In this document: positions 32,133 to 64,000 of the stretch, piece after piece
Layout: each line of letters starts with the position of its first letter
Position numbering within the stretch: the first letter of the stretch is position 1
Assembly (NCBI RefSeq): GCF_037975245.1
Contig: NC_092574.1
Location: 25,774,713-25,838,712, forward strand
Reading direction: 5' to 3'
DNA from: Apostichopus japonicus
Lineage: Eukaryota; Echinodermata; Holothuroidea; Aspidochirotida; Stichopodidae
DNA: 64,000 nt
Notes under the pieces: generated by a model
Told to the model about the DNA's origin: nothing
The model's input: only the letters and a program-made list of their open reading frames with translations
Databases searched by the model: none
Translations under genes and position numbers: made by a program

Positions 32133-35100
32133 ATGGCCGGTGGACAAGAAAGTGATTTTAGTTGGACACATGAGAAGACATTTAAACTTATTTTTCTCTT
32201 CGAAAAAGCACCGTTTCTATACAACTCCAGACTACTAGATTACAAGGACAGAAATAAAAGGAGTGACGCCATTGCCAAATTAGCTCGGGAATTGGAAACT
32301 ACAGGTAACAGTAGTCAAGTGTAATAGGCTAGTAGTACTTGTAAGTTGTAAAGTTAGGCCTAGCGCCCCAGCATAAGGGGTGTTACTAAAACGAATGACA
32401 ATTGCGTTACACATAACGAATGACAATATGTTGTACACACTAAAAAATTGCGTTGACTAAAACGAATGACAGTAATGACAGCACAGACATTTGCTTCAAC
32501 CGGATATCAGAGTTCAGACTTCGTGGGTATCTAGATCTAGAAAAGTACGGACAAGGTAAAAACGCACCTTATAGTAAGCGAAATTGTAAGTCTGATTTTA
32601 AAAAGTAAATTTAACGTCATATTTCCGATATTAATTGTTAGAAACTAACAATACTATAATCTTGAAACGGCTTCAGTTATCTTGTAGTGACCGAGCAGTA
32701 ACAGAACAAACTAAAACACATGCAACCAACAAAGAATGACACAAGACAAGTTGACAGCTTGGATGCTGGAGGAGCTCTGGTTTGTATTATCCTCTTGTAA
32801 CATCATCTCCAACATACATAACAAATTAACACTCACATAAACCAACACCCTAGTATAATACAATCCTATTGGTAGGTGGAAGACCACTGACCACTCCCAC
32901 TAGGTCATTCCATCTCTCACAAACATCTACACCTGTATAACATGTGATATCACACCAGAGTGTGTGCACCTGGGTACTCTCCAATTGACCTGGCTATAAC
33001 AACTTCCAAACATAACTCAACTTTCAGTGTAAACAATAGACAAAATACCAACAATGCCATAGATGGCTATCCTCAGTGGACTAGACCAAACAGTGACCAG
33101 AATAGTCTAATAAATGCCAGCAAGTACAAAAGACTGGCCAAAGATAGGATAAATAAGCTAGGACCCTACAATCTTTCTATATAAATCTACAGTGGTAAAA
33201 AGCAGTGGCCGCGGAACCGGGGGCTTGGGGGGGCTCAGCCCCCCCAATGAAAAAATTGAGGGGGCAAATGCATGATAAGCCCCCCCAATATTTACCAAGG
33301 CTCCGAAACGTGCATCTGCCCATTTTTCAATGCATACTTGTCGATCTGTCCGATGCACACGTATACTATATAGGTGTAATAATTTTAGTAATTGCTGGGG
33401 GACCCTGGTCCCTCGGCCCGTCCTCTGGCTGTAGACCACATTGTCACCCCAACCGCGTCTTCACGCCCGTGAAAAGTGGAAGCAGTTAGTGTGAGTACCG
33501 GTAAGCGTAACACAACTTCGTCTTAGGCCAATGACTTGCCTCATTTCAGCCAGTTCTCCAACATCCCCTTACTTAGTGGCGGAGCGTCCATATATACAGT
33601 CAGGGGGCGGATCCCCCCCCCCCTCCTGACGGACTCAATTTGACTGCTGGCGTCCTTTTCAGCTTTTCACTACTTTTTACTTATTCGCGATTATTGACTA
33701 TTTTATTGCGCTCTCATACACCTATTGACATTTGTCATATTCTGTTGGTGTAATTTTCCGACAAAATGGCGACGACACCTATTTGTTCTCCGTTTATCTG
33801 CAAATTAGCAAGGCCCGGAAAGGGTCATTTCCTGCAATCTAGGGAGTAACTTTACTCAAAAATTTCTGTACGCTCCGCGCCAACCTGTGGTGGGGCTCCG
33901 CTTAGATAGTGTCGAAAGCGCCCCTACAGACCATTCTTGCCCCCCCCCCTGACCAATACCCCTAGCTCCGCCACCGCCCTTACTACACTCAAAAACGTCT
34001 TTGCGAGTACACTACGAGTAATAGCTACTCTCTTAAAAAAAACATACAAATTACAATGGTTTTACAGACTTTTACATGCAATCTGAGAAATTGCAGGCTT
34101 GAGACCCATATTTTAGGGCTAGGTATTCGCAGCATAAAACACTCGGGAAATGCCGTTTTCGGCCATCTGGGGGTTTGAAAAAACCGAAAATTTTCTTGTA
34201 CGCTCCACGCCAACCAATGGTGGCGCTCCGCTTAGATAGTCTCCACACATTAGCCCCCCCAATAATTTTTCCGTTCCGCCGCGCCTGGTAAAAAGCACAG
34301 CACTCGAGCGCATTCTCACACAAAAACTTTCCCTGTGGTTTCTATCCGCAAATTACACCAAAACCCTGCAACCACGTAACATGCGATTTTCCTCAAATCA
34401 TTTTTGCGCAGAAAACCAATAACCGCATTTACCCCACTCCGTTAATCATTCTATCTCCACTCAACACTGTCCTTCATTGTCATTCGTTGTCATTCGTTGT
34501 CATTCGCTGTCATTCGCTGTCATTCGCAAATGATAATTAACCCTGTACAAAGTCAATTGTCATTCGGTCATTCGCTGTCATTCGTTTTAGTTTGTCCCCA
34601 GCATAAGTAAGTAATAGTGTAAAGCAACAGGAAGTGTACCTTTCCACGCAGGAATACAGCTAAAATAAATTTCTGGCAGTTGCATCTAGACCAAGAGGCC
34701 TTGGCCTATCCTCTGTTTATGAACAGTTTGTGTACTATGGCCTATGGGTAAAATTTGCGCGGGTCCTGGGCTTAACTACAGTAAGTATGTCATTAAAGTT
34801 AAGCTACAGTAGAAAACTGAGGACCATACTTGGGCCTAGGCCTACCAAAGAGTTAGCCAACATTACTCTCTGGTCGCATGTCTGAAGTTAAGACTCTCAT
34901 CAGTAGCTACCAACCTAGTCTAAAGCAGTTAGGAATGGGTTTGTTGTTATTAACGTGTTATTGTTCCTCACACATGTATGATACTACGGAATGGTGTCTA
35001 GCAGTATGTTATGCTTTTGTATGTCTTGAAGCCTACATTCTGTACTTTAAAGAAACTCACACCTCAAAACCTCAATAAAACTAGCAATTAAATAAGAATG

Positions 35101-37931
35101 TCTGCCTAATTATTAAGCTCTCTTAAACCCGCGACTATGACTCTTTGAACTTGATCATTTCCCTGCCCTTAAACATCGGGGGACATTTTTTAGGACTACT
35201 GACTTACAATATGATACTGTACTGCATTTGATGGACAATTCCTTAGGCTGAAAGATCACATTAATGCTACTGCCTGCATCTAGCATGGACTTGATGAATT
35301 GGGTTATTTCAGAAATGAACAAATGCAGTTTGCTTCTATTCTTTTGTTGGTTTTAAAACAACTTTGGAGTAGCACATCTGCACTAGACTGATTTTGAATC
35401 ACCACACACTGAGGGTCAATGACATGCATATATTAAATTAATATGAATTACAAAAATTGATGGGAGGCCTATGATATGCATATCATAGGCCTCCCATCAA
35501 TTTTAGATCAGATCATTTTAGAAAGTAACAGAACTTTTTGTTTACACTTCATTCTTCTTTTCTTCACTCTTAGTTTCTGAGGTTACAAAGAAGCTAAGAG
35601 GACTGAGAAGTCAATATGCCCGAGAGAAAAGCAAGGAGCAGTACCCACATGCCGGGGCAATGGTAGATGGAGAACCTTACAGGAGTAAATGGTCTTACTA
35701 CCCCTATCTGCATTTTTTGGATCAATTTACGATTGTTAAAAAAAGCAGAACCATATCACCTGATGCTGATGCAAGATCATTTGACCAGCAGGTATGGTAC
35801 AAGCTCTCGATGTAAGGTGGCACTTGTTAACGTATGGATTTATAAAAGTTTGAGGAACTGATATTTTGATCATATCAGGGTCTTCTTCAGAGGCTGACTG
35901 ACACGAAATAAACCAAGAACACATCAAAGACACATATGGACAGACAGTTAATTATAAGATTCCCCCTTTAAAAAAAGATAGTAGAAAGAAAACTGAACCA
36001 ATGACAGAACAAATACTAAAGCAAACAAAGTACAAAGTTGATAAGGATGACACCTGAGAGATACTGTAACAGAAATGCATGGAGAGACAAAAACTGTTAG
36101 CATACTGCATATCTATTGTAAGCTGCATTTGTCGGTAAATATGTAGAAGTTAGATGGCCTGACATTTTTATCCTAGCAGGATCTTCTTCAAAGGCTAACT
36201 GAGATGAAACAAACTAACACTCATTAAGAGATGTAGATCCTTGCTAGCATTTGTTATTCCTTGCTGAAAACAAAAGGAAATATTGCAGTCATGATGCAGT
36301 GTGTATGTGGGTGTGTGAGTGTATGTGACGCCTTGGCTTGTAAACACAATGACTCAATATTATAAAGGTGCATGGACTTAAAACTTTGTATTTAGATGCA
36401 CCATATTGAGTTTTAAGGTAGCATACGCCCATTAAAATCCCCATTGACTTACACACTAAATGACAAAAGTAATGCCTTTTCTAAGCCTAGATAGAAGTTT
36501 TCACTTGCTAAGCGCTACCCATCACTGGATAGCTGACAAGTTGGCCTTTCATGGCACCATCAATTTTCCGTACCATGACCGTGAAAATTTTTTGCTACGA
36601 GAGCTGGAACTTTTCATCACTTGTAAACAAACCTCTTTACTCGGCCGTAAACAATCTTCGTCCGCTGCTCCTGAGAGGGCTTAACTGGTCTAAAATTGCC
36701 TCAGTTTTACCCAATTTTTTAACCACATGTGCTTCTGTTCATGCTCTTTAACATCCAAGCCACAAAAAAGCTCATCCTAATTGATAACATAGCAATTCCT
36801 GCTCCTAATTGGCACTTTTCCTGAAGGAGAACATTTGCCGCGGATTGATATAGACGCTAATAGGAGTATGCCACCCTCAGCTGCATTTGTTTTTGGCTGG
36901 GATCAAAGGTCATGCTAGGTCACCAGAGTCCAAACTGTGAAAAACCTTGTGAACACGATAACTCAATATTACAAAGTTAGATGGACTTCAAATTTGAGGT
37001 CAATAGGTGTAAAAGTCTGAAACCCTCTAATCATGGTAACTCCAAAATTCAAGCAACAATTAATCTGGGAATTCTCCAATGCTATGAACATAGTTTGGTC
37101 AAGTTCAGTTCAGTTTGTGAAGGAGCTCTATAAGCTTTCAACAAAACATACAGTCATCCAGGAAATGAAATCTGCTTCAGTCTATTGATTATCTATAATG
37201 CTCTCTCACATTAAGACTCACAGCAGGCCCCCTATCAGTTTTCAGCCTCTGAGCTCAAGGGGTCAACAGGTTATCACAAATGGTGGAAACATTGGCTTTA
37301 GGGGTCAACAAGTTATCTCAAATGGACTCAAAATTGGCCATTGTCTCTATGATTCATACAAAAAGACTTTTGCTATGGCTAAGTTGTGAAAATATTTCAC
37401 AGTGTATGAACAGTGTCATGCAGTTCTCATTCATTGATGAAAATTATTAAAGGGATGGTTGCAAGGTGGCAGAGCTGATTTTATTAATACATGTATGGGT
37501 CTATATTTCACATAGGAAGACTTTTCTTTCTGGATATTGAAACATTTTGGAATAAAAATTCTATACTGTAACATCCTTACCAATGAAGGATATGGCTGAT
37601 GCCTGCAGGGGAGTGTTAGAAATAAGTGCTGGAAATCTCTGATCTTTTCTGGTTGTCACTTAATTCTTGGACAAATTTAACTCACTTGCTCTACATTAGT
37701 CAGATAGTTATTTGCATTTATATGGCAATGAATCACAAAGCCAACTGGCTTTCTGCTTGTCTGTAGGTTTAGGCTGTTAAGGTTCAAATGTTCAGTAGTA
37801 AACTAAGTGGATACAATTGACTGTCAAACAGACCAACTTCTCGTAAAGATAAGCTACTATCATGTATCACAAAGTAAGAAACCATTCAATGATAGGTTGA
37901 TAAATCATGCATTATTTATTAATTTATTTGT

Positions 37932-45557: not shown

Positions 45558-45640
<83 letters not shown>

Positions 45641-45660
45641 CATATATATATATACACATA
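45558..45660. repeat. (TA)n / (TATACA)n microsatellite
   Basis: A TA tract of about 100 bp with AAATA and ATACATA interruptions, preceded by (GT)n. Confidence 0.97.
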
Positions 45661-46225
45661 CATACACACTACAACTACAACCTTTCAAGGTTTTTAGCAG
45701 TAGTTTTAACGACCTCCTTTGTTTGAATACAAGTTGCTTACTCATCTGTAGGTTTAGCTTCCTCCCTTCTTACAGAATATGCAATGTCACGTGTGATTCA
45801 ACAAGAACAAACGTCTTTCAAAAAGTTTGCAGCCATGTGACAATGATAACTATGACATATTCGTCAGGCTCTAGTATAAGTTCATCGTAATAAGTTACAT
45901 TGCCACGTGACGACTGCATTCCTCGAAAATGGAAAACATGACATCAAAAACAAAAAGGAGTGTAACAATTTTCGTCAAAATTTTATATTGTGCACGAGAA
46001 CAAAGTGTGAAAACTTGATAACTACCATTAACACTTTGTAAAGGTCTAAAGAGTACTATATATATGTTGCTAGTTAACATAATCTTGACTATGGCGTTAC
46101 GTAAACGATAGTTAAGAAATGGATTTTTCTCATGTAAGAAAATCTAGTTTTGGTACCCGCGACTATATGAAACTGTACAAATAACCAACAACACTATCTC
46201 TCTCTCTTCCCCACCACTCTTCCCC

Positions 46226-46228
<3 letters not shown>

Positions 46229-46302
<74 letters not shown>
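46229..46302. repeat. (TA)n microsatellite
   Basis: About 74 bp of uninterrupted TA after a CT-rich lead. Confidence 0.97.
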
Positions 46303-46303
<1 letters not shown>

Positions 46304-48067
46304 TTATGCTGCCTTGAGAAAGTCAGTTCATATATGAACAAAATGAGACTGCAATTGATCATTTTCAAGATATCATACCAAGTGTTTTACCACGTGAACT
46401 TAAGTGGGAATAATTTATTGTTTTCAATATTTTTGCTTATCATGCAATATTTTTTGTTACTTGTAATCCAAGGCCAAAATAAACCATGTCCAAAAAGTAC
46501 CTTCTTCAATCATAATGTATCTTTTCCAATATAAGCTGAAATCTGTACATGACATCACAAAGTTTATTTCAAACTTTCGTATTTGTTAAATTGTAGTCTT
46601 TGTTGCACACAGTTCATTCGTTTATAACGGTAATACTTTATAAGAATATGTTCAATATCCAACATGAAATACAATTAATCTCTGTGATAAACACATCAAT
46701 ATATATCTAGATGGAATAAGAAAAGATGAATGTTAAACAAGAAAAGATTTTAAACAAGAAACAATGATCAAGTACCGGCATATATACAGAGACCACTAAC
46801 GTTCACATAGGGAACCCTAATTGGTAGGTGCAGTACGGTCAGTGTGTGAGATATATGAGCTACTGTGTAACATTAATGTGCTACTATTATCACAAACTTG
46901 AACTAAGCATTAGTCATTCGGTGTTCCTTCAAAAGTAACAGCCAAAACTTTAATTATCATAAAAACAGTTTATCAAACCAGTGATGTATCCCCCTTCCAG
47001 TGGCTACTTGCCATAAAGCAACTTCAATCCAACATGAATGTGAATAGACAACCGAGATGGACACATTAATGTGACATACCCAAAGCCAGAGAGCATCGGT
47101 AGTAGCCATCACCTTTCAATTCATTCAGTTGTTTTAACAATTAAGTTTTCAATGGCAGGCTCAAAATGGTATACTTAAAGTGACAATGCTAGGTCCTGTA
47201 AATACTGGCTGTGTGTTGTGGTCAGAGAAACTCACCTTCGTTTGGAGGCAGATAACTCTGACTCTGTCAAAGAAATGTCTTAGGGGTTTTGAATTTCTAG
47301 AAGAAAAGGTAAATTTCCCTGAGGGAATAACCAGGTTTGTACCTAGGCCAGGGCACAGACGAGCTGTTATTTTATGTGTACGATGCGTTCCTACTTGGAC
47401 CAATACTGACCGTGGTAACGTGGTTGAACTTGAAACTTTCCACAAGTCTTGCAGAATTTAATTAAGCAACTAATCTTCCACTATGGCATTCCAGAGATAT
47501 ACCAACATAAAAAAAATCACACAATAATCTCTAACAAAAGTAAATAAACTTTGACCTCCACCAAAAAATGATAGTGTGTTTATGCTCATTAAAGGAGAAC
47601 CACAGGTTAAGTTTGAGTTCTAGCAAACCATTCCCTTCTTGATGTTAATATAAACGTATTCACATACTGATCTACGTTGACATTTGAAATCTTATCACAT
47701 GTTGAAGGCTTTTGAAGACCTTGAAATAACATACAAATGTACATAATAAACCAACTTACATGAGGTATAATGCTTAAATTCTCTCTTTCTTTCATTTCTT
47801 CATACATTTTCTTTCCTATAGCAACGATACATAACATGTGGCTTCTCCAAAACAGAATAAGGTTTAATCCATTTTGTAGTATTACTTTATTTTGCCATTT
47901 TTTTTCTTTTTGGTTCTTGAGCACAAAGTAAACTGAACTGCAAGCCATTCCATTATGAACTCTATGTGCCCTAAATTTATTATGTACAACGTGCGAACTA
48001 GTTTTACTATTTACAATCACAGAAGAAACAAACTTGCATAACTGCCATTTGTTCTTCAACATTATAT

Positions 48068-48835
48068 TGTGGAATAACTAGATAACTCCAGCTTTCTCAC
48101 ACAAGTCATATGTCTATTAAACTCCATCACTTAAGTGAGTGAGTCTTGTAGTTATTCCTATCCTAAATCATTTACTTACAATATATGGGTATTTAATTGA
48201 TTACTCCAGCTTCTCACTCAAGTGAATTGTCTGTTAAGCTCCATCACTTAAGTGAGTCTGGTAGTTTTTACTTTCCTAAATCATTTACTTACAATATATG
48301 GGTATTAAATTGATTACTCTAGCTTCCTCACCCAAGTAATATGTCTGTTAACCTCCATCACTTAAGTGAGTGAGTTTGGTAGTTATTCCTATCCTAAATC
48401 ATTTACTTACAATATATGGGTATTTAATTGATTAATCCAGCTTCTCACTCAAGTGAATTGTCTGTTAAGCTCCATCACTTAAGTGAGTCTGGTAGTTTTT
48501 ACTTTCCTAAATCATTTACTTACAATATATGGGTATTAAATTGATTACTCTAGCTTCCTCACCCAAGTAATATGTCTGTTAAGCTCCATCACTTAAGTGA
48601 GTGAGTTTGGTAGTTATTCCTATCCTAAATCATTTACTTACAATATATGGGTATTAAATTGATTACTCCAGCTTCTCACCCAAGTAAAATGTCTGTTAAG
48701 CTCCGTCACTTAAGTGAGTGAGTCTGGTACTTATTCCTAAATCATATACTTACAATATATGGGTATTTTATTGATTACTCCAGCTAAGTAAAATGTCTGT
48801 TAAGCTCCATCACTTAAGGGAGTAACGTCTGGAAC
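48068..48835. repeat. minisatellite with alternating 113- and 118-bp units
   Basis: The anchor ACAATATATGGGTATT recurs with steps of 113, 118, 113, 118 and 112 bp, so the real period is a 231-bp dimer of two variants (for example TTTAATTGATTACTCCAGC against TTAAATTGATTACTCTAGC). Each unit carries the palindromic word CACTTAAGTG. About 6.6 units. It lies downstream of the PAR-bZIP gene. Confidence 0.95.
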
Positions 48836-49765: not shown

Positions 49766-52700
49766 TCACAGGGCATTGAGAGCTAGCAGTTTCTTCTCAT
49801 AGGTTTCCACAAGCTTCTTGAAACTTTGGTTCTCTTTCTTCAAATCATGGACCTGAGACTTGAGACATGAATTCTCCTTCTGCAGGAAGGAGGTCCTAAT
49901 TACGATTTGGTTTTCCTTGACTCTTCTCGCATCCCTGGACCTCTTTGCGGCAATGTTGTTCTTTCTTCTTCTTTCCCAATACTTGTCGTCCTTGAGCTCT
50001 TCGGGGACGTACTGCTTCTTCGATTTCTTCACCATGGGCTGCGGTTTCAAATCGTCGTCCGAGAAGGTCTTTTCTCTCGGGTTGAACTCATTCTGTCCCG
50101 GGGCGGTGGCCAGGGCCACATCTGTGGATGACACTGCAAAAGCCACATCAACATTGACCGGACTGAGTGGACTAGGAGGGGTGCTAGGGGAAGCCACGGA
50201 GGGGTTTTCCTCTTGAAAAGCTGCAACTGCAAGAAGATAAAAACAGTGATGGTCATTGTTGAAAGTATGAATTAATGTCGTCTGACATCAGAAGCAAGAT
50301 GAAACTAGCAAATATGAACTGTAGCTGTTAGGTTCAATGCAAGTCAGTTCAAGATCTGGATATTATTGGATGGGTGCAGTACTGTAATAGGTCACAAAGG
50401 TCCCTCTTTATTGCACCTGACATAGCCTTTGTTCTTTTTAATAAATAAACTACAGTACTGTACATCCCAAATGGGTGGAGAACTAGAACACTATTAACAG
50501 TGCAAATATAGAACTGGGTTACTGTAAAGTCAAGCAGCTAGTTTTCAATCTGGGTTAGCAGCTACAGTCCCTCCATGCAGTGGTAAATCACATTATCATT
50601 GATATCATGTCTATAAGCTGAACTTGTTTTGACTGTTGTCACACAGTTAACTTTCAAAAAGCCCCAAAAACTAACAGTTTATTTTGTATTTGAAAAACAA
50701 CTCAACATGTCTCTATTACTACTATATACAGCATTGCTGAAAAACACAATCCAACGCAACCAACGGATAACCCACACAATGCAGTCGTTAAACTTAATGA
50801 AGGCCATATTGTTAAACAGGTATATACTACTGACATGGAAGTGACAGCCTGCTGAAATACATTGTACAGTCTATTCCCTTTGTCTTTTATAACCGATGAT
50901 GTACTGGTAGACCAGTACTGTATGCTTTAACTCTGTATACACAGTATGTCATTCAACGTAAGAAAGGGTAACCACTATCCCCTTTCAGTTTGTCTCGCTT
51001 TTCTTTTCCAGCTGTTTCTTCCTCCACTTCATTCAAACCATATTGGTGTATTCCAGAGCCTGGTATTATGATCTGACATTATACTGGTTATATCGCTATA
51101 TGGAAATTAAACTAAATTTTAAGGACATTCCCTCTAAAAAAAGAGTCATTGTACACCTTGGGCTGTATTAACTGTTCCATATTGTTCTGACAGCTGATAA
51201 TACTTACTATCCAACAATGATCTCTCTTTTCATTAATATTAAAATATTGTTTTCATAGTATTAAATCACCCCCCACCTGTGTAAACTATCATATCTATAA
51301 GTCCACCCTTTACACTTTCCATGACTTGCAGAATCTCAAAATTGATCTTGTTGTGTGCCTTTGTACATAACAGAAGATCTGTGTATATGTCATGGGTTGA
51401 CATTGGCAAATAGCTATCAAGATGTCAGATAAATCATGCTGAATACATCCTGGCGAACTGTTATTTCCACACCGTTTGGGGGCAGTTTTACTTTGATGCA
51501 AGTTTTTCTTTTCATAGGTCAAATCTATCTTTCCGTGACATTTCAGTTGGACGATGTTATGCTGGTTTCATGTTAACTGAACATGGTGGTATATTAAAGT
51601 TACCTAGAACTTTCTTATCACCGCAAAGACACAGGTTAACTTGTGTTGGTGTTTTATTTTAAGCCCTACTGAAGCCTAAATCCCAACAAACCAGACTAAA
51701 AACAGCTACACATGGCAGGTAATCCTGGTTTTACAAAGCACCAAAACTACTTAATTATCAACTTGACTGGAAATGTTCAAAGAACCTGTTAACAAATTTA
51801 CAATTTGCCTAACTGGCTAGAGCCATATAGACTGGTACAGGGTATGTGATTAATGACTGGAGAACTTCACTTTCGGCCATGACATAACATTGACAGGATA
51901 AATAATTGTACTGTACTGCATGGCCATTTCTCACACATTAATTTATCCTCATATCTATCTATGTTCAGACTTCTATCTACATGACTCCCCATGACTACGC
52001 CTACTAAACCAGCCAAAATGTACACAGTTTCAGAAAACTTTTCAAGATGAAATGACACTTAAGAGACACTGTAGTTATTTAGTTCTTTTGGCAAACTGGG
52101 CTATTAGCTATCTTCATTAATACTATTGACACACATAGCCTTCCAATAGCTACAGTACAGTGTAAACAGTGAGAATAGCCATGGAGGTACACAGCATACA
52201 CGTCAAGCCTTTTGTCAACACTGAGATTCGGACAGTACTGTACATAGGTCAAATGGATATTAACATCAGTTACATGGGTTTCTTCCTTGCATACTGCAGT
52301 GTGATCACTTTAATATGAACCCTGGGATTCCCACAGGCTGATGGTCAAAGCATGAGATGATGGCTGGAACAAGGTCATCTGGTATTGTTACCATATAGAA
52401 GTATGGCCACTGCTGAACTTTGTATCACATTTGACCTACAGTTGAACCGTTGAGGTAGAACTACTTTACGCCACAACTGTTTGGCATCCTGCCACATGCT
52501 TGACCAATGATTGACCCAGGAGCTATTGACAAGTATCGGTTGACCAATAGCTTGAATGCTGTACTAGTGTCCCTGAGAGTATCCTGTACTGTACAGAAGA
52601 TATCAAATTGTAAGCATATTCTACACTTGAATATATGCCACACTAAATGTGTAAAAGCTGACTGTAGTGCTTCTAAAGTGAGTTAGTGTACATTACTAGA

Positions 52701-55700
52701 TTCTGAGTGGATTCATTTTGTTGTTCTTGAGCATAAAAGATTCAGTTTATATGTTTCCACTGTCACACATATGTGTTGTAAACCCTTGGGGAGAAGAAAC
52801 ACAGTATATTTAAATGACCAATTCAGACAGAACAGCATGCTATGACAATCACATACTGTTTATAAGGAGATCAGCAAAGGTGAACCTAACCAAGGCATCA
52901 GTCATTAATTATGTTTAACAGTACTACTCATTTTATAAATAAAAGTGCTCCTTACTTGGAGAGCCCAGTGGCGTGGCTCCACCATCCATGCTGTGAGTAC
53001 TCTGTGTATCCACCATGACGGGCGATATTACTGGTGAGGAAGGCATGGATACGTTGCTGTAAGGTTGTGCAATCAACTCATCAGTGGGGGTCATGGGTCG
53101 TTCAATGGTCGGAGGAATGTCCCTGGCAGACTTGTCTTCCTTGCTCTCGCCGTTGTTGACCTGGATACCATTCTCGGCCAGAAATTCATCGATGTCCATG
53201 TATTCCAACTTCAGGTCCGAGTCGGAGGGTAATGTCCTGTCCCAAAGGGTGGGCCCGAGGAATGCTGCTGCCATGTCCACTGCTTCTGCATCGTAAAAGA
53301 AGTCATCCTTGTCGCCTTTGGTTCCATCTGAAATGAAATAAGAAAGGAAAATGAAATGAAAATTGCCTAGAAACATCTTTTTCAAAAATATATATATAAT
53401 TAATTCCTAACGTTCATGATTTGTTCCATCTAAAATAGATTACTGCTAAGGTCACCTTAAACGCAGTTTGGGGGCAGGAAGGTTACCTAGGTTACCCATT
53501 GTTAGAACTGTTCCGGTCTCTTGCCTTGTCCATTGTATTGTTTGTACGTGTCTTTGTAATTTTATTGTTCTTTTTTTATAATACTGTTTACTGTTTTGTG
53601 CGAGAATTCAATTACCCCTTTGTGAGGTTTAATAAGGTTGATCTTATCTTCTTATCTTATCTTAACAGTTGGCAAGTAGCCCTGGATGCTTGAGAAGTTT
53701 TGCAATTAGGAATGAATTACTAACACATACTTACTGTACAGTTCAGTATGCAGAGTGTACCACTATACCGTTTGTATGTTAAAACTAAACAACAGACAAA
53801 TTAAATATACACCAACAACAGAAAACAACCAACGAGCAAAATAATTAAGAATTAAATTTATGAAAGCAACTTAAATTACTGCCAACTTTTATTATCCCAA
53901 AATCTGTCTATATAGAAACATGTCAAAGCACATTGTGACATCTACACGGGTCTTCAAGACTTCAATGGATTACCAGAACATTCGTTCTTCAAAAATATCT
54001 AACTCTCCCACCTCACATATACTGTCCGCTCTAATGTACAGCACTACTGTTACATGTTTGGAGATACTCTACTTGTACTGTTCTATAAATTAATTGTATA
54101 CTGTTTATTAATTGATTAATCGTGATTAATAAATGTAGAGTAGATGAATAAATCCAGGTGCAGTACTGTAGACCAGTGTAAACCTTCAACAGAATAGGAA
54201 GATAAGCCATGACTGGATAGTGACCTTTGACCACACAAGAGTGATGTAGGCTTCATGTATGAGTTCATTAAGCTGGGTCTACCAAACAAGTAGGAAGTTC
54301 ATCCAATCTTCACTTAAGTTGGAGTTATTGTTTGACAAAACTATTGTTACAACCACTTTCCCTATTTCAATCAAGTCCTTCATATTGATTTTTGGATTCT
54401 GCACAATGTACTTTTGACATCAACAAAACTTGCAGGGATTAACTGATCCAGTATTGTATAACCAGATGCTAGGCAACATGGGCAAATTGCTAGATCATAT
54501 AAGTGCAAAGATGAATAGCAGCTTTAGTACAAAAGAGCCATTGTACTTTGTAAGGGAGTGTTCAGAGCCTTCAAATAGTCACAAAGCTAAGTGCTACCAT
54601 AATGAGGGACCTACTGTACCATCAAAGCAATTCATAGAAGCAGCCTAGCAGGTAGGTAATAGTACTGTAGGCCGCCATTGGTGACTTATCATGTTCACAA
54701 GCCAGTCATCTCGGACTACACATCAGACGGCTATGCGTCTATTAAGATTCAATTGTGGATGAAGATTCTGAATGAAGAACACACTCCCTCTTAAAAGTCC
54801 TTGGCACTTTTGGTGATCAGTGTTGAATGAGAAGGGTCATTGACTACTGGTAGTGACAGTAGTTGAGGGCTTAAAGGTATGCTGTATAGGCCCCAAATAT
54901 GCTAGATATTCAAATATGGTCACTGTTGGTCCAAATTCTTAAACTGTATTTATTACCAACCGGCAGTAAATTTTACCTCACCGGGGCACTCAGTCATCTT
55001 GTGTGTATCATTTAGAAAGTCTGAGAACAATTTGGAGAGTAAAAACCTCAAGGAAAGTACTTTTTGAAAACTTGTAGCAATTTTAGCGTGCTATAATTTG
55101 AGGCCTTTTACAGACTACCTTTAAATGATAACCAGTTCACTCTAAGCACGGTAGAGCAAGTGTGCTGAGCTGGGAGACAGGTACAGTAAGCGAGGAACCC
55201 TAGCAAATAGTTTAGTGTACACGCATGCACATGTATACCCATGTCATCAAAATCACATGTTCTTTTTGCTTTCAGCAATGACTAACAAATTAAAATTTTC
55301 AAGTAGGTCATTAGTTAGACCAAAAAAGTCTGGCAGGCTGTCTTGAAAACCCACTGTACAGGTTCCATGCAGATCTGAAGGTTATGAAATGCAAGAAGTG
55401 CTATTAAAGATAATCAATCATGCTTGATACTGTCTGTATACACAATCTTGTACCAGCCTGGCAGCCACCGCTACCAACACACATTAGCACAAGCATGCAC
55501 TGAGCGCATGGCAGCAAGGGCAACTTTGGCTGTCTTTGACTTTAACCTTTAAACAGACATCTAGAGTAGCTTGCTGAACAGGAGGGCCTGAGTGCTGACA
55601 GCAAAATTATACTTGACATGGGAGAGACTTTAAGAGGATCAGAGAGGAGGGGAAGGGGTGTAAGGATCAGAGAGGATAGAAGGGTGTGAGGATCAGAGAG

Positions 55701-58623
55701 GAGGGGAAGGGTGTAAGGATCAGAGAGGAGGGGAAGAGTGTTTAAGGAACAGAGAGGAGTGGAAGGGTGTAAGGATTAAAAAGGAGGGGAAGCGTATAAG
55801 GAACAGAGAGGAGTGGAAGGGTGTAAGGATTAGAAAGGAGGGGAAGAGTATAAGGATCAGAGAGGAGGGAAGGGTGTGAGGATCAGAGAGGAGGGAACGG
55901 GATAAGGAACAGAGTGGAGTGGAAGGATGTAAGGATTAGAAAGGAGGGGAAGAGTGTTTAAGGAACAGAGAGGAGGGGAAGGGTGAAAGGATCAGAGAGG
56001 GAAGGGTGTGAGGATCAGAGAGGAGGGAACGGGATAAGGAACAGAGAGGAGTGGAAGGGTGTAAGGATTAGAAAGGAGGGGAAGAGTATAAGGATCAGAG
56101 AGGGAAGGGTGTGAGGATCAGAGAGGAGGGAACGGGATAAGGAACAGAGAGGAGTGGAAGGGTGTAAGGATTAGAAAGGAGGGGAAGAGTGTTTAAGGAA
56201 CAGAGAGGAGGGGAAGGGTGAAAGGATCAGAGAGGAGGGAAGGGTGTGAGGATCAGAGAGGAGGGAACGGGACAAGGAACAGAGAGGAGTGGAAGGGTGT
56301 AAGGATTAGAAAGGAGGGGAAGAGTGTTTAAGGAACAGAGAGGAGGGGAAGGGTGTGAGGACCAGAAGTATCTCGGGTCTAGTAAATTTTGTTAGAAATT
56401 TTACCGTCACAGAGTAAGAATTATTACTGTATTATTTATTTCACGAACAGTTTTTGATGTTTAGCGTTTACAGTAGTTTATGCTGTAACTGCAAACATTG
56501 TGAGTGAAAAAGTAAATTCTTTCATCTTGTGTCCTTAACAAAAACTTCATCAGTTGCAATGAAAAATTTACCAAAAGTTGCATGAATTCTATTCAAACCC
56601 ATGCTAGGAGGGCATAACTAATTTAGTCAATACCCTTTGCATAGCAATATCACATCTCTTTTTTTTTTTAATTAAATAAATGGAATACTGAAAACATAAT
56701 GGTTTTGCACAATGCATCTAAAATAAACAAAAGGGCACTGCTGTCATGTACTTTTCAGTTAAGTTCTGCAATTGTTCATATTTGGCAATTTGCTTAGCAA
56801 TGTGCAATGCCATATATTGGATGAATGTTTTGCATAATTTAAACCTTTCCAGGCATCCACAGAAACCTACAAAAACAAATGGTAATAGCTACTGTAGGAA
56901 CCCCCCCCCCCCACATCCTCTCTGCAGACATACTATGGGGTTACCGTCTCACTTTCTCTTACCATCAAATTTATCTGCCATTCTGGGGTTATCTGACATA
57001 TATACTGATTTTCATGGACATTTTCATCTTTTTGAATCTGTTTTTCTTCCTCCAGTAAGGTTTCTACTAAACTACAGCAGATAAACAAGAGTTAAACCTC
57101 ACTTCAACTATCCCTCTATAACCTAAATATAACATCCCTCTATCCCTCTATAACATAAACTCTATAACTTACGCTACTTTCAGACTGTATCCTTCAACAA
57201 TTTGCAATAGACTGAATCCAAAAGATTATTGTTAGGTTGGAGTTTTCTTGAAACTTTTGGTAAATTTGTTTGTAAACAGGTGAACTTTGGTAAGAATCTG
57301 ACAGAAGAAGTGATAATTGAAATGATAATAGCCATGGTCCGTGTCCAGTGTGCCTTTTGCAACAATTTGAGTGTCTGCATGCATTTAAAATCCAATGGCT
57401 GCAGATAGTAATGTTTTGTTTCCAAAAACAAATATGAATGACGTGGCTTTTTGGTTTTATATCAATTCTCTTCTCAAACTTTCCGGGGCCCGGCTACCAC
57501 TCTATCTGATTTATATGCAAGTGATGTCTGCTCTTCTGACCATTATAATTTTAAGAAACGGGAAGTTAATTCTTTCTTTTTTAAAGTAAACCTAAAAAAT
57601 TTAATAGCAAAGTATTAAAACTATTATTATGAACTCAATATGAAAATACATGTATGCAAAAAAATTGATGCTGGTCTGGTTATCATGACTGAGAACATTG
57701 CAATAGTTAAATACGTACAAAGTTTCCATTGTTGATTCAGGCCTAACTGGAGGGAAACTGCAAGGCACAGGGGGGTGGCAAGGAGCTGCACCATATGAGC
57801 GAAGGAGTGACTCCCTGCCAACCTTATAGCGCACCCCCCCCCCCCATATTATTATGCTTGAACTTTGGACCCAGGCCTACTGTACATAGTTGAATGCAGA
57901 CTAGCAATCTCCAAAAGATATAAATATGGGTATTTTCACATTAAAAAAAAATGATACCTGGTGCCCGATACATCATGCGATCCTACAAAACATTTTAAGT
58001 AAAATTTAACTCATAATTTAACATTCTGGCCTCCCCTCGAATTATTAACAAGATGTTTGTGTTCAGCAATGTCATCCTTGGCTGCTTTCTTGGGCTTTAA
58101 CAAAATTGTGTATCCATCTTTCAATATTATACACAAACAAATCCAGAACTCAACCTTGGCATTCTCTACACTAGTTAGATCTGCTTTACGTTTTTCACAA
58201 GGCAAGAATTGTGCACTTGAGATTAAGGAAGCCCATTGTGAGACCAAACATAAAACCATGTCCACCGGTGTTGGTGGAAGTAGCATAGGCCTAGTATATT
58301 ACTGTTACTGTGCATTGTAACTTGTACTTTGTCATAGTGCTTTGATATGGTCAATCGATAAGTTCTAAAGCTCATCTGATGTATGTTCCATAGCGATTGA
58401 GTTACTTAGACAACAACACACGAACAGTGTTCAAGTTAGTAATATTTTTTCCACGTTTAACACTTATGCATATAACTTTGGACTAACTTTGTATTATTAG
58501 CGAATAACATTACTTACCATCGTTGTTGTTTGTTACTGGCGGTGGTAACAACAAGTTCGGATTCTCAAGAAGAGCCTTTAGTGTTATTCCTCCAAGTTGG
58601 GGATTTGGTGTTGCTTCTGCCAT
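49766..58623 (-). CDS. PAR-type bZIP transcription factor (DBP/TEF/HLF family)
   Basis: Three exons in coding order, 58623-58518, 53327-52956 and 50226-49766 (TGA), with GT/AG sites and matching phases; 312 aa (human HLF 295). The N-terminus holds LGGITLKALLENPNLLLPPP. Exon 2 carries AAAFLGPTLWDRTLPSDSDL, then LEYMDIDEFLAENGI, the conserved activation segment of PAR proteins. Exon 3 has the PAR region (FSDDDLKPQPMVKKSKK, YVPEELKDDKYW, about 214-243), the basic region RRRKNNIAAKRSRDARRVKE (about 245-264) and a leucine zipper to about residue 305. These factors dimerise and bind D-boxes (RTTAYGTAAY) and act as circadian and metabolic output regulators in vertebrates (Pdp1 in Drosophila). An invertebrate single-copy gene would be pro-orthologous to DBP, TEF and HLF, so no single vertebrate symbol is given. 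Confidence 0.96.
53328..58517 (-). other. intron 1 of the PAR-bZIP gene (5.2 kb)
   Basis: No further exon was recognised. A plus-strand frame at 54430-54648 has no identifiable domain. The intron contains the purine-rich tandem array at 55627-56365 and poly-C tracts near 56900 and 57833. A VNTR of this size in the first intron could affect chromatin but nothing in the sequence shows it does. Confidence 0.7.
55627..56365. repeat. purine-rich tandem array with higher-order periodicity
   Basis: Short units of the type AAGGATCAGAGAGGAGGGGA and AAGGGTGT, about 30-36 bp each, are arranged in longer blocks. The variant GAGGGAACGGG recurs at about 55891, 56023, 56126 and 56261, so the blocks are about 103-135 bp. 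The plus strand is strongly purine-biased. It lies in PAR-bZIP intron 1. Confidence 0.93.
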
Positions 58624-58840
58624 TGTCAAATAGTAAATTCGCGACAATTCAAAACACTACGGGATAAAAACGAAGTTTAACCTGGGGGAGAAATAAACGT
58701 TTGGCAATATTTGAGTACAGTTAACATTATCTGTCCTATATTTTAGGGTGTTTGTCTGCGTACACCGCTTAGCCAGGATCGTTTGCTGTACTTGTTTACT
58801 AATTAGTTGATTCAATGCTCCTATCGATATAGCTGATGCA

Positions 58841-58848
58841 TTACGTAA
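58841..58848. promoter_or_regulatory. D-box (PAR-bZIP binding site)
   Basis: ATTACGTAAG matches the PAR-bZIP consensus RTTAYGTAAY at nine of ten positions and lies 218 bp upstream of the PAR-bZIP start codon. This suggests autoregulation or control by related bZIPs. Confidence 0.55.
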
Positions 58849-58989
58849 GTGCGAGTCTGGCCTACAGTACGTTCGCATATGTAGTGTACAAGCATGTACA
58901 TATGTACATACGCCTTCTGTGTTGAAAAGTTAGCTCAGCGTTCAAGCTTGCGACTTGTGACGTTACTGCGCAGGAGTCGTCAAAGATTT

Positions 58990-59007
58990 CACGTGAAGCT
59001 ACACGTG
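58990..59007. promoter_or_regulatory. tandem E-boxes, 6-bp spacer
   Basis: CACGTG-AAGCTA-CACGTG, two perfect E-boxes separated by exactly 6 bp, about 370 bp upstream of the PAR-bZIP start codon. CLOCK:BMAL1 favours paired E-boxes with 6-7 bp spacing. Confidence 0.65.
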
Positions 59008-59529
59008 CAATGAGTTTGACGGTAGCCTATAGAGACCATTCTTTTTCTTATATCTCAAATATTAACACACTATACTGTGGCAAATATATATGTGTGACGA
59101 TAAAACATGGCAGAACAATACCTGCTTTCTCATCAAATACAAGGTTGCTAAGATTACGATAGAATGCTGTTAATCTTTATGGCTACTGGAGATAAACGCC
59201 TCGATCTGTTTGCTATCCAGATCGTGCGTACGTATCACGGTGTAGTACCAGTGTTCCGTCTCTCGAAATGGTGATTTCATGGATTTCGATATAAGAACGA
59301 ACGTGGCACTACATTGAAGACAAACCATCGTAGAGATCACATGATGTTTGTTCCGACAAGAGGACTGGGACTGAGAACGCATCAGTTTGGGGAATAATCC
59401 TTTATTCGTCGTGCCCATACAAGCCGGCGGTGACTTTCCTCAAGGTAAAATGAACAACAACGCCTCCGCAATGGCAGTTGCATAGCCATTGGGGAATGGA
59501 AGTTGAGGGCGTGTTACAGGCTACCACAC

Positions 59530-59560
59530 CAGAGCCGTATATAGAGAGAGTTTGGCCAAC
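59530..59560 (+). promoter_or_regulatory. 31-bp promoter-like motif, copy 1
   Basis: Identical, inverted, to 63712-63742. It contains CAGAGCCGTATATAGAGAG followed by TTTGGCCAAC. The TATATA core lies about 50 bp before the ATG at 59589 and just before a CRE, so it may act as a TATA-type core promoter for the plus strand. Confidence 0.5.
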
Positions 59561-59570
59561 TGGCGATTTG

Positions 59571-59578
59571 TGACGTCA
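59571..59578. promoter_or_regulatory. CRE palindrome TGACGTCA
   Basis: A full 8-bp CREB/ATF site, 11 bp upstream of the candidate start codon at 59589. Confidence 0.5.
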
Positions 59579-59588
59579 CACGCAAACC

Positions 59589-59751
59589 ATGGGCATCAAA
59601 ATAGGTCCAGTTGTCGTTACCAGTTGCGCGAAACACGAAAAACACCACACACAATATATAGCAGCTTTGCACACTGTGCTCGTTGCGAACAAACGAAGCG
59701 ACCCAGAATGTCAGATTTTGACAGGCATACGAGGAACAAAATGGATATCAG
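59589..59751 (+). CDS. candidate first coding exon of an unrecognised gene
   Basis: ATG in an optimal context (AAACCATGG) opens a frame of 54 codons (MGIKIGPVVVTSCAKHEKHH, then an alpha-helical-looking QYIAALHTVLVANKR and CQILTGIRGTKWIS) that ends at a GTAATG donor. Promoter-like motif, CRE and start codon follow one another within 60 bp. No family is recognised and the second exon is not established. The nearest acceptor (60034) joins in frame but leads straight into LINE sequence; the acceptor at about 60948 would add only 13 codons before a stop. Confidence 0.4.
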
Positions 59752-60034
59752 GTAATGAATTAGAGTATGCGTTAGTTAATGACATTTACGTTTATCTTCA
59801 CACCTGAAATGCATAGAAAACTAGCTGAAAACCTGTCATTACACTTGTTTTATTTTACGCCTCATACTACTAGTCCTACTTTAGTCATACAAACGAAAAG
59901 CACACATCACAGTCCTGGCTAGGCTAGATTACAGACGCACAACTATAGCATCAGGCCTACATTAATAGATCCTTCAATTAAATGAAGTAGGCCTACACAT
60001 AAAATGACAATTTATGCTTCACTGATCTTTTCAG

Positions 60035-60360: not shown

Positions 60361-61826
60361 GAGTGTAGGAGTTAGCAATAGTTGGGAGTCTGTGGGCAAA
60401 CCTAAGACTGATATTGTGGTGTTAATTTCTCAGGAATGTAGTACTAGGCTATAGTAGGTGCAACAGATTGAATGGGTCTGTCGAGAAAAAAAAAAAAACC
60501 TGCAACAACTGAAGACTGGTGTATGTTGTAGCTTATGTATTTTCCATTAACATATATACTATAAGGTCATGTCCTTAATAAGGTTTCATGGATCACACTG
60601 ACATAGTGTGCCTACTTGTCAGTGTTGTCAACTGAGCACAGGGCTGATGACATCATTCAGTTTGTTATTATGCAGACAGCAAATGGCCATAGTGATAATT
60701 ATTAATTGTTACTTATTCTTCATACTGCCCTTACTGGCCTTACCTGAACAGTGATGTATAAAAATGCAAGAAGTCGTTAAGCTTTCCATTTAAGAATCGT
60801 TTCAGCCTGTCCTATTTCAAACATATGATTGGCAGGTTTCCACGTTACATAGCTTATCAAAATGGAGCTGTTCTGTAAAGCAAGAAAATCACACATATGC
60901 ATGCATACAAACACACTCATATATAACAATTTCTGAATATCTTTTCAGCTGCCCAAAGGTACTGGAATGCAAGCTCTGTTGGGTGAATTAAAAAACCCTC
61001 ATTGTACTCTTTTATCATGGTCAGCGTAGCTGGAACCAACAATGATGGTGATGTGGATTTGACAGTACCTAGACAAGAATTCAATAGCTGCTTTGTGTTG
61101 AAGTGGGTTCAACTTGCTCAAGGCCATGACAGGATGACGACTAGACATTAGGATGAATTACCTGTTGCAGAGCTCTATAAACCAGGCAGTTGTTAAAACA
61201 TCCATTGGGTGACCCTCACAGTCTACCAGCCACTGCATCGCAGAAGCAAAATGAAGTGTGTGTGAGAGTGGAATGGTATCAGTGTGGCCTCTGTCAATTT
61301 GGCTTCAAGTCTTTGTTTTCTTGAAAGCTGAGAAGATCTTTCAGTGGTTTCACACTGACCTCTGTACTTGACAATTCATGTGTATTTGCCAGCTCAGGAG
61401 GAAGCCAGATTTTAATTACATTAACCAATGCTGACTTTTTTATGGACATGTGGTACATCTGCAAGGAGGTGAAGGAAGCAGTTGGAGTTGCATGGATGTG
61501 GAATCTTGTTGATAGTCTGGCATTCTTATCCACAGATTATCCCAAAGCTTCTCCACATTGCCACATTCAGAACTTATTACATTGATAAACTTGAAAATTG
61601 CAGGAATCTAACGAAGCACCCATCAAGAGAATTTGTTTGTATAATTATTGAAAGCTGTGACCTTCTGATGTGACAGACTAATGTGAAATAAAGGGCAGTA
61701 GATTACTTTGTAAATGAACCTTGTTATTGTTTGATTGTATCTAATGTTTGCAAAATTTTAAGTTGCATGCTACCAATTGAAACATAATTCTTTCTCTATT
61801 AATGGGATATAAATACTTCTCCTTAA
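60361..61826. other. unassigned sequence
   Basis: No exon or repeat could be supported. A minus-strand frame at 61294-61533 (ending QENKDLKPN) lacks a recognisable domain and has no convincing acceptor. Some of this may be transcribed from the promoter-like region at 59.5 kb. Confidence 0.4.
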
Positions 61827-63430: not shown

Positions 63431-63711
63431 ACAGACTTTTTTTCATTAGATCTCCGTCTTGTTCTTTCTACTTCCAAAAAATTCCTCTTCTTTTATGGTC
63501 AGTCGGAAAATCAAACAACAATATCCATGTTCTGACCGATTGCAGCATCCCCAGCACCATTTCTTTCATAATTTCGTACTTTTTCGTGTACACAAACGAT
63601 AGTCTATACACTGTGAGTATGCGTGTCGCCTGCTAAAAAGTTTTCAAGTGGACCTATTTTACCACCCTGTGTGGGCGTTTTCCCTCTCGACCAATCCAAA
63701 TCGGTTACATG

Positions 63712-63796
63712 GTTGGCCAAACTCTCTCTATATACGGCTCTGTACCACACCAGAGCCGTATATCACCAGAGCCGTATATCTCTATATACGGCTCTG
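63712..63796 (-). promoter_or_regulatory. 31-bp promoter-like motif copy 2 with palindromic satellites
   Basis: 63712-63742 is the exact inverse of 59530-59560. The 13-mer CAGAGCCGTATAT occurs four times in 67 bp: inverted at 63730-63742 and 63784-63796, direct at 63751-63763 and 63767-63779. This gives two nested palindromes. Orientation suggests transcription towards lower coordinates from copy 2, but no downstream minus-strand exon was recognised. Confidence 0.5.
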
Positions 63797-64000
63797 TACC
63801 ACATATCAGTCGAAATTCGATGGCACAGAGCATCGGAATCAGCAGTCCCAATCAGCAGTTCGAGTGTTTTTGTTTAGCATTAGCATATATACCTATACTA
63901 TAGTTTTGTTGGGTGTCAATTCCAATTTAAAGTCGGGATAATCCACCAAAGGGCACACGAGTCCTGATACGGCATAATACTGTCAATGTAATCAGTGTTG

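Follow-up and report, generated by a model that had tools for sequence, protein, structure and literature searches.

Paired E-boxes and a D-box octamer upstream of a putative PAR-bZIP gene in the sea cucumber Apostichopus japonicus

The putative PAR-bZIP gene and its neighbours

The window analysed here is the whole stretch of 64,000 nucleotides, numbered from its first letter. Its minus strand contained a gene with three exons that joined in frame to give a protein of 312 residues:

58518-58623, minus strand: first coding exon, which begins MAEATPNPQLGGITLKALLENP and ends at the donor GATG/GTAAGT, with a possible start at 58681 if an upstream acceptor is used
52956-53327, minus strand: second coding exon
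49766-50226, minus strand: third coding exon, with the basic region, the leucine zipper and the stop codon (Pfam bZIP_2)

The first base of the ATG was located at position 58623, and an in-frame TAG was found 12 codons upstream. The C-terminal domain matched the C/EBP-like bZIP_2 family in Pfam above the cut-off (E-value 8.1e-17), and among the genome's 14 bZIP_2 matches the exon that encodes it scored best. Among solved structures in the PDB, the closest was NFIL3 (4.3e-11), followed by C/EBP beta. The joined translation contained LKPQPM-KK and KDDKYW-RRRKNN-AAKRSRDARR-KENQI, and in the N-terminal part LENP, LGPTLWD and LEYMDxxEFLxENGI, which we take to be PAR-type motifs by comparison with vertebrate HLF and TEF. 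The KPQPM motif was present only in this gene among the seven bZIP stretches listed by a motif screen of the 14 bZIP_2 loci. On the basis of these family features rather than of a database model, the gene is probably a PAR-bZIP gene of the DBP/TEF/HLF/Pdp1 class, in agreement with the initial annotation.

A scan of the viral contigs with the bZIP exon gave no related sequence. Elsewhere in the genome, 2 bZIP_2 genes were located 11 kb apart (L006 and L012, at G000:C2:1505203 and 1516530). The first of these appears to be NFIL3-like, as judged by eye from its likeness to the NFIL3 structure chain, and the 2 products are possible competitors of the PAR-bZIP protein for D-boxes.

Two tandem arrays were associated with the gene. 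One, at 55635-56366 in the first intron, consisted of about 27 copies of a purine-rich unit of 27 bp, while the other, at 48081-48832 beyond the stop codon, contained 6.6 copies of a 118-bp unit and is perhaps part of the 3' UTR. Further away on the plus strand, the window contained a C2H2 zinc-finger exon at 1852-2592 that was GLIS-like by eye, a leucine-rich repeat exon at 23989-24351 that was LRRC59-like by eye, and two pieces of MADF-domain exons at 32058-32324 and 35522-35815, all identified with Pfam. An 84-bp match to U2 snRNA on the minus strand at 25354-25437 (53.3 bits against a gathering score of 46, for a model of 192 positions) is probably a pseudogene.

Position and setting of the E-boxes and the D-box

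Three exact motif matches were located upstream of the start codon:

58990-58995, no strand assigned: E-box 1, CACGTG, flanked by T and A to give TCACGTGA
59002-59007, no strand assigned: E-box 2, CACGTG, flanked by A and C
58841-58848, no strand assigned: D-box octamer TTACGTAA

The E-boxes were separated by the 6-bp spacer AAGCTA and thus form a tandem pair, defined as a CACGTG and another E-box with 6 or 7 bp between them. The pair was located 367 to 384 bp upstream of the ATG. The D-box conformed to TTAYGTAA and was located 218 to 225 bp upstream of the ATG, separated from E-box 1 by 141 bp. These positions bear out the claim made from the first inspection of the sequence, namely that two perfect CACGTG sites lie 6 bp apart about 370 bp upstream and TTACGTAA lies 218 bp upstream of the start codon. 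As judged by eye, the D-box matched 9 of the 10 bases in the extended consensus RT(G/T)AYGTAAY quoted in PMC2759001, and on the minus strand it fitted the Nfil3 motif VTTACGTAAY, which is listed in a study of deuterostome chromatin together with GHCACGTG for Clock and RTTATGYAAB for Hlf (PMC11240583). Neither of the E-boxes fitted this Clock motif on either strand by eye.

The surroundings of the sites included three further features:

58681-58697, minus strand: splice-acceptor-like site TTTATTTCTCCCCCAG/G, located 58 bp upstream of the ATG
58501-59750, no strand assigned: CpG-replete stretch, with an observed/expected ratio of about 1.1, as compared to 0.43 on average in the window
59571-59660, plus strand: candidate divergent core promoter, with a CRE, TGACGTCA, at 59571-59578 and TATATA at 59655-59660, followed by an ATG at 59708 (by eye)

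Splice sites were scored with weights that approximate metazoan frequencies, and ranks are therefore quoted. Of the 7760 AG sites in the window, both strands included, the acceptor-like site at 58681 ranked 10th, higher than the acceptors of the gene itself, which ranked 99th (53327, exon 2) and 34th (50226, exon 3). The exon with the ATG may thus not be the first exon. Upstream of 58681 and up to 60200, the only donor-like sites on the minus strand that scored above 3.5 were those at 59530 and 59804, and if the acceptor is used with either of these, the E-boxes and the D-box would be located in a first intron rather than in a promoter. From the E-boxes to the start codon, the sequence contained six ATG triplets, a mild argument for either splicing or a transcription start near the gene. 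The description of the region as a circadian-style promoter is supported in so far as it refers to a PAR-type gene, a tandem E-box and a D-box octamer, and it is in keeping with the CpG-replete setting. Its status as a simple promoter is less certain, since the acceptor-like site argues against it and would allow for an intron in the 5' UTR. The element may be either a promoter or a first-intron enhancer, and an intronic location would not exclude a function, since mouse Dbp has an intronic E1-E2 element (PMC3043000).

In blocks of 500 bp, the observed/expected ratio of CpG was 1.14 at 58501 and 1.07 at 59001, which were among the top four of 127 blocks, and 0.87 at 59501. Ratios above 0.8 were obtained for 7 of the 64 blocks of 1 kb. 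The CpG-replete stretch probably has a regulatory role, which the 5' end of the gene and a possible divergent transcript would share. No donor on the plus strand scored above 4 between 58600 and 60000, and the divergent promoter is for this reason considered a candidate only; the second donor of the PAR-bZIP gene itself scored just 4.04. Searches in Pfam gave no match for three open reading frames in the 59.5 to 64 kb interval, one at 59507-59755 (E-values up to 1) and two at 61325-61585 and 63603-63941 (E-values up to 0.01).

Other accounts of the region were set aside. A role for the D-box as splice donor of a plus-strand transcript was dismissed on the basis of the same donor scores, and a transposon origin of the E-box stretch was rejected since a pair of inverted arms both fall outside 58841-59007. 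These arms, which were perfect over 31 bp at 59530-59560 and 63712-63742, 4.15 kb apart, and had further partial copies at 63743-63803, are possibly the ends of a mobile element or a fold-back array; the 21-base core of the arm was absent from the viral contigs. Scans with Rfam and for tRNAs found nothing at the E-box and D-box site. A scan for bacterial signals gave 3 promoter-like sequences against 3.5 expected and 3 terminator-like sequences against 1.0 expected, which is irrelevant for an animal gene.

Frequency of the motifs in the window and in the genome

The motifs were selected post hoc, after the sequence had been read, and the estimates below should be viewed in this light. CACGTG was mildly over-represented, with 9 sites in the window against 5.23 expected, and at least 9 were obtained in 6 of 100 shuffles. 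The octamer TTACGTAA was present 3 times against 0.67 expected, a number reached in 1 of 100 shuffles, and a D-box occurred by simulation at 0.019 to 0.037 per kb. The D-box is thus weak evidence by itself and only nominally unusual.

The strict pair of CACGTG sites with a gap of 6 to 7 bp was much rarer under all of the models examined. At each of two Markov orders, 300 simulations of the whole window failed to produce it, as did 400 block-preserving shuffles. Local models gave 0.0002 and 0.00045 per kb when trained with the sites included, and 0.00045 and 0.00035 per kb when the sites were masked from the training data, while uniform placement of the 9 E-boxes in the window gave a chance of 0.0023. 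CACGTG was one of 7 palindromic hexamers, out of 64, that occurred at least twice in the E-box kilobase, and one of 6 out of 64 with a pair at 6 to 7 bp anywhere in the window, two of the six being located in AT repeats.

We also scanned the genome (671.6 Mb in 35 contigs) for perfect CACGTG pairs with gaps of 6 to 7 bp. There were 25 pairs with a 6-bp gap and 32 with a 7-bp gap, 57 in total, which corresponds to 8.5e-5 per kb, whereas a control with the reversed pattern gave 42 and 34, or 76 in total. Perfect pairs are thus rare in the genome, yet no commoner than the control. With only 57 pairs in 671.6 Mb, it is unlikely that one should be located at a clock-output gene by chance. Among the 20 other 6-bp pairs that were inspected, out of 24, TTACGTAA was present within 500 bp in 2 cases and the observed/expected ratio of CpG was at least 1.0 in 8 cases, as compared to 1.10 around the pair in the window. 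It is therefore the location at a PAR-bZIP gene, rather than the D-box or the CpG content, that distinguishes this pair.

Among the 14 bZIP_2 matches, only the one in the window had a perfect pair nearby, at 9.2 kb from the bZIP exon. For the other 13, the nearest perfect pair with a gap of 6 to 7 bp was at least 0.9 Mb away or there was none on the contig. No such pair was located closer than 2.1 Mb to any of four cryptochrome/photolyase places, and the nearest to the TIMELESS match on contig 4 was about 3.9 Mb away, by eye. The comparison with clock families is limited to perfect pairs, while the second box in mammalian pairs is often imperfect (PMC3043000). Ten open reading frames from 6 of the 20 pair loci that were fetched contained no clock family in Pfam, a test weakened by introns; three weak or ordinary matches in these were to an ion channel, a UDP-glycosyltransferase and, below the cut-off, FSIP2. 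Seven near-identical 7-bp-spaced CACGTG pairs, with the spacer ATGCGT plus one base, were clustered within 0.24 Mb at G000:C23:10777222-11020644, and are probably a duplicated gene or a repeat family.

A second group of E-boxes and a D-box was identified at the other end of the locus, 3.4 to 4 kb beyond the stop codon of the PAR-bZIP gene:

45788-46396, no strand assigned: CACGTG at 45788, 45904 and 46391, TTACGTAA at 46097, and CAAGTG-N6-CACGTG at 46379-46396

It is tied to the gene by position only. When one mismatch at most was accepted in one box and the other was perfect, only two tandem pairs with a gap of 6 to 7 bp were found in the window, the 5' pair and the one in this 3' cluster, and a D-box was located no more than 500 bp from either of them. 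Of 400 block shuffles, 2 gave two such pairs, and even a single pair accompanied by a D-box was obtained in no more than 2 of 400. Two clusters with at least two E-boxes and a D-box within 700 bp, a span set after the size of the second cluster (609 bp) had been seen, were observed in the window, as compared to two clusters in none and one cluster in 2 of 400 block shuffles. With the first cluster excluded and the remaining 7 E-boxes and 2 D-boxes placed uniformly, the chance of a second D-box with at least two E-boxes within 700 bp was 0.018, and that of a D-box with three E-boxes within 310 bp, a threshold chosen post hoc, was 6e-5. Two AT microsatellites were present, one inside the second cluster (46229-46307) and one immediately ahead of it (45561-45654).

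Possible functions and comparison with known clock elements

CLOCK:BMAL1 prefers E-boxes that are 6 to 7 bp apart, acts on them cooperatively and binds such sites in Dbp, and PAR-bZIP genes are named as controlled by BMAL1/CLOCK (PMC3043000). According to the same study, E1-E2 elements with a 6- or 7-bp spacer were present in 13% of the mouse BMAL1 sites overall and in 29% for the set of core clock genes, and an E1-E1 version of the element in Dbp intron 2 functioned like E1-E2. Work on nucleosomes indicates a preference for spacings of 6 to 7 bp, and also 3 bp (preprint PMC12424780). These sources agree with what the initial annotation had stated about the preference of CLOCK:BMAL1 for tandem E-boxes and about the drive of vertebrate DBP by such pairs.

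The sea cucumber locus resembles the mouse Dbp promoter and the E1-E2 element of its intron 2 in that tandem E-boxes with a gap of 6 to 7 bp are associated with a PAR-bZIP gene. However, binding and rhythm were demonstrated for mouse Dbp and are only inferred for the window, and both boxes here are perfect CACGTG while the model probe for gel shifts in the mouse contained the non-canonical E2 AACGTG (PMC3043000). The clock enhancers of Drosophila Pdp1, which drive rhythms that need cyc, are likewise control elements with E-boxes at a PAR-bZIP gene, but consist of several single elements with a CATAC core and mostly imperfect E-boxes, unlike the perfect pair in the window (PMC5499816). E- and D-boxes are found together near a clock gene in the light-responsive module of zebrafish per2 as well, although this is a different gene, with one E-box and with adjacent boxes, as compared to 141 bp between them here (PMC2759001). 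The promoter of mouse Topoisomerase I is clock-regulated and has the same set of two E-boxes and one D-box, but the gene is not a PAR-bZIP gene (review PMC13300105).

The sea-urchin homologue Sp-Hlf is an echinoderm PAR-bZIP gene that is reported to cycle under light-dark conditions and to lack a rhythm in free run (PMC10486798, citing a thesis), a behaviour that light drive would explain no less well than clock drive. Canonical clock components have been reported for the starfish Asterias rubens, while the sea urchin S. purpuratus is described as being without PER (PMC9939569), and sea-urchin cryptochrome is the subject of PMC11292970. A sea-cucumber genome paper treats Clock, Bmal1 and Cry1, and the term Hlf is absent from it (PMC6018497). 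Of six putative circadian genes in Nematostella, the three that are rhythmic carried CACGTG within 2 kb upstream (PMC2943474), and a CLOCK:CYCLE to PAR-bZIP loop has been proposed as a model for this animal (PMC7222589). Among the matches listed in a literature search, there was no promoter study of an echinoderm PAR-bZIP gene, Sp-Hlf included. For mammals and flies, the wiring from the clock to PAR-bZIP genes is itself already an accepted one, and for cnidarians it has been proposed.

The best reading of the locus is in our opinion a cis-regulatory element of the CLOCK:BMAL type at the PAR-bZIP gene, a reading to which we assign even chances. Two CLOCK:BMAL1 (CLOCK:CYCLE)-type heterodimers would bind next to each other on the tandem E-boxes and turn on the PAR-bZIP gene, rather than the divergent transcript, once daily. 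At the D-box, which is 141 bp nearer the gene, an NFIL3-type repressor or the product of the gene itself could add light or phase control. Feedback is suggested with reservation because the D-box is only nominally unusual, and a 2026 review of DBP contains no word starting with "autoregulat" and gave no support for a feedback of the protein on its own gene (PMC13300105). We favour this reading because 6-bp tandem CACGTG sites are rare under every null model tried and in the genome, and because of the second cluster past the 3' end, the CpG-replete setting and the NFIL3-like gene in the genome. It is weakened by the lack of enrichment of perfect pairs genome-wide and their absence near the other clock-family matches tested, by a CpG richness that is shared with 8 of the 20 other pairs, and by the misfit to GHCACGTG (PMC11240583). 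It is further weakened by the observations that the fly elements need no canonical E-box for their rhythm and that their activity was not reduced when cyc was lost (PMC5499816), that sea-urchin Hlf reportedly shows no cycling in free run (PMC10486798), and that TTACGTAA was numbered 18 among 18 D-box sequences assayed in mammals, if the number is taken as a rank (PMC6687812).

Other proteins may make use of the same sites. The octamer around E-box 1, TCACGTGA, is typical of MiT/TFE and USF sites, although bHLH factors other than CLOCK:BMAL1 are not known to need a spacing of 6 bp. The E-boxes could serve bHLH proteins of the MiT/TFE, USF, HES/HEY or MYC/MAX types and mediate nutrient, stress or developmental control rather than daily expression, an account that we consider unlikely but with a real chance of being correct. 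That CACGTG is bound by other bHLH proteins, which also tells against the CLOCK:BMAL reading, is illustrated by USF1, which is named as a probable competitor for binding to the mouse probes (PMC3043000), and the poor fit to the Clock motif points in the same direction (PMC11240583). The strict 6-bp spacing, on the other hand, marks paired CLOCK:BMAL1 (PMC3043000; preprint PMC12424780). It is also conceivable, if quite improbable, that the motifs have arisen by chance in a CpG-rich stretch and that their pairing is without function. Perfect pairs are no more frequent than in the reversed-pattern control (57 versus 76), none was located near any other clock-family match tested, 7 of 64 palindromes are repeated in the E-box kilobase, and the finding is post hoc. 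Against this stand the low probability of a pair, 2 to 5 in 10,000 per kb in the local models and 8.5e-5 per kb from the genome count, its location at a gene class that was predicted beforehand to carry such pairs, and the second cluster, which flanks the same gene.

The D-box could instead be the main driver of a gene that is directly induced by light, with weak clock control added by the E-boxes, like in the module of zebrafish per2, where the D-box gives the light response and the E-box the clock response (PMC2759001). The zebrafish PAR gene tef is induced by light and cycles with low amplitude in darkness (PMC2759001), and the dependence of sea-urchin Hlf on light-dark cycles would be accounted for (PMC10486798). 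Yet, a D-box alone is expected in 2% to 4% of such kilobases and was found near 2 of the 20 other perfect pairs, and it is separated by 141 bp from the E-boxes here, as compared to adjacent boxes within the 55-bp core of per2 (PMC2759001). We regard this explanation as very unlikely.

The most far-reaching version of the CLOCK:BMAL reading is that two composite modules, one at the 5' end and one shortly beyond the 3' end, each with a tandem E-box of 6-bp spacing and a D-box, bracket the locus of the PAR-bZIP gene in what is probably a non-chordate animal and would form a clock- and light-driven, self-regulating enhancer pair that predates the split of vertebrate DBP, TEF and HLF; this is in our view a long shot. 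The observation is sound, and the CLOCK:BMAL interpretation is sensible and conventional. The old clock-output wiring suggested in the initial annotation would require the sites to be conserved between species, and within the genome it is not mirrored by perfect pairs near the other clock-family matches tested. If the sites are conserved, they would extend the link from CLOCK to PAR-bZIP genes, down to the precise syntax of the tandem E-box, to another animal lineage, and make it testable whether the 6 to 7 bp rule predates the vertebrates.
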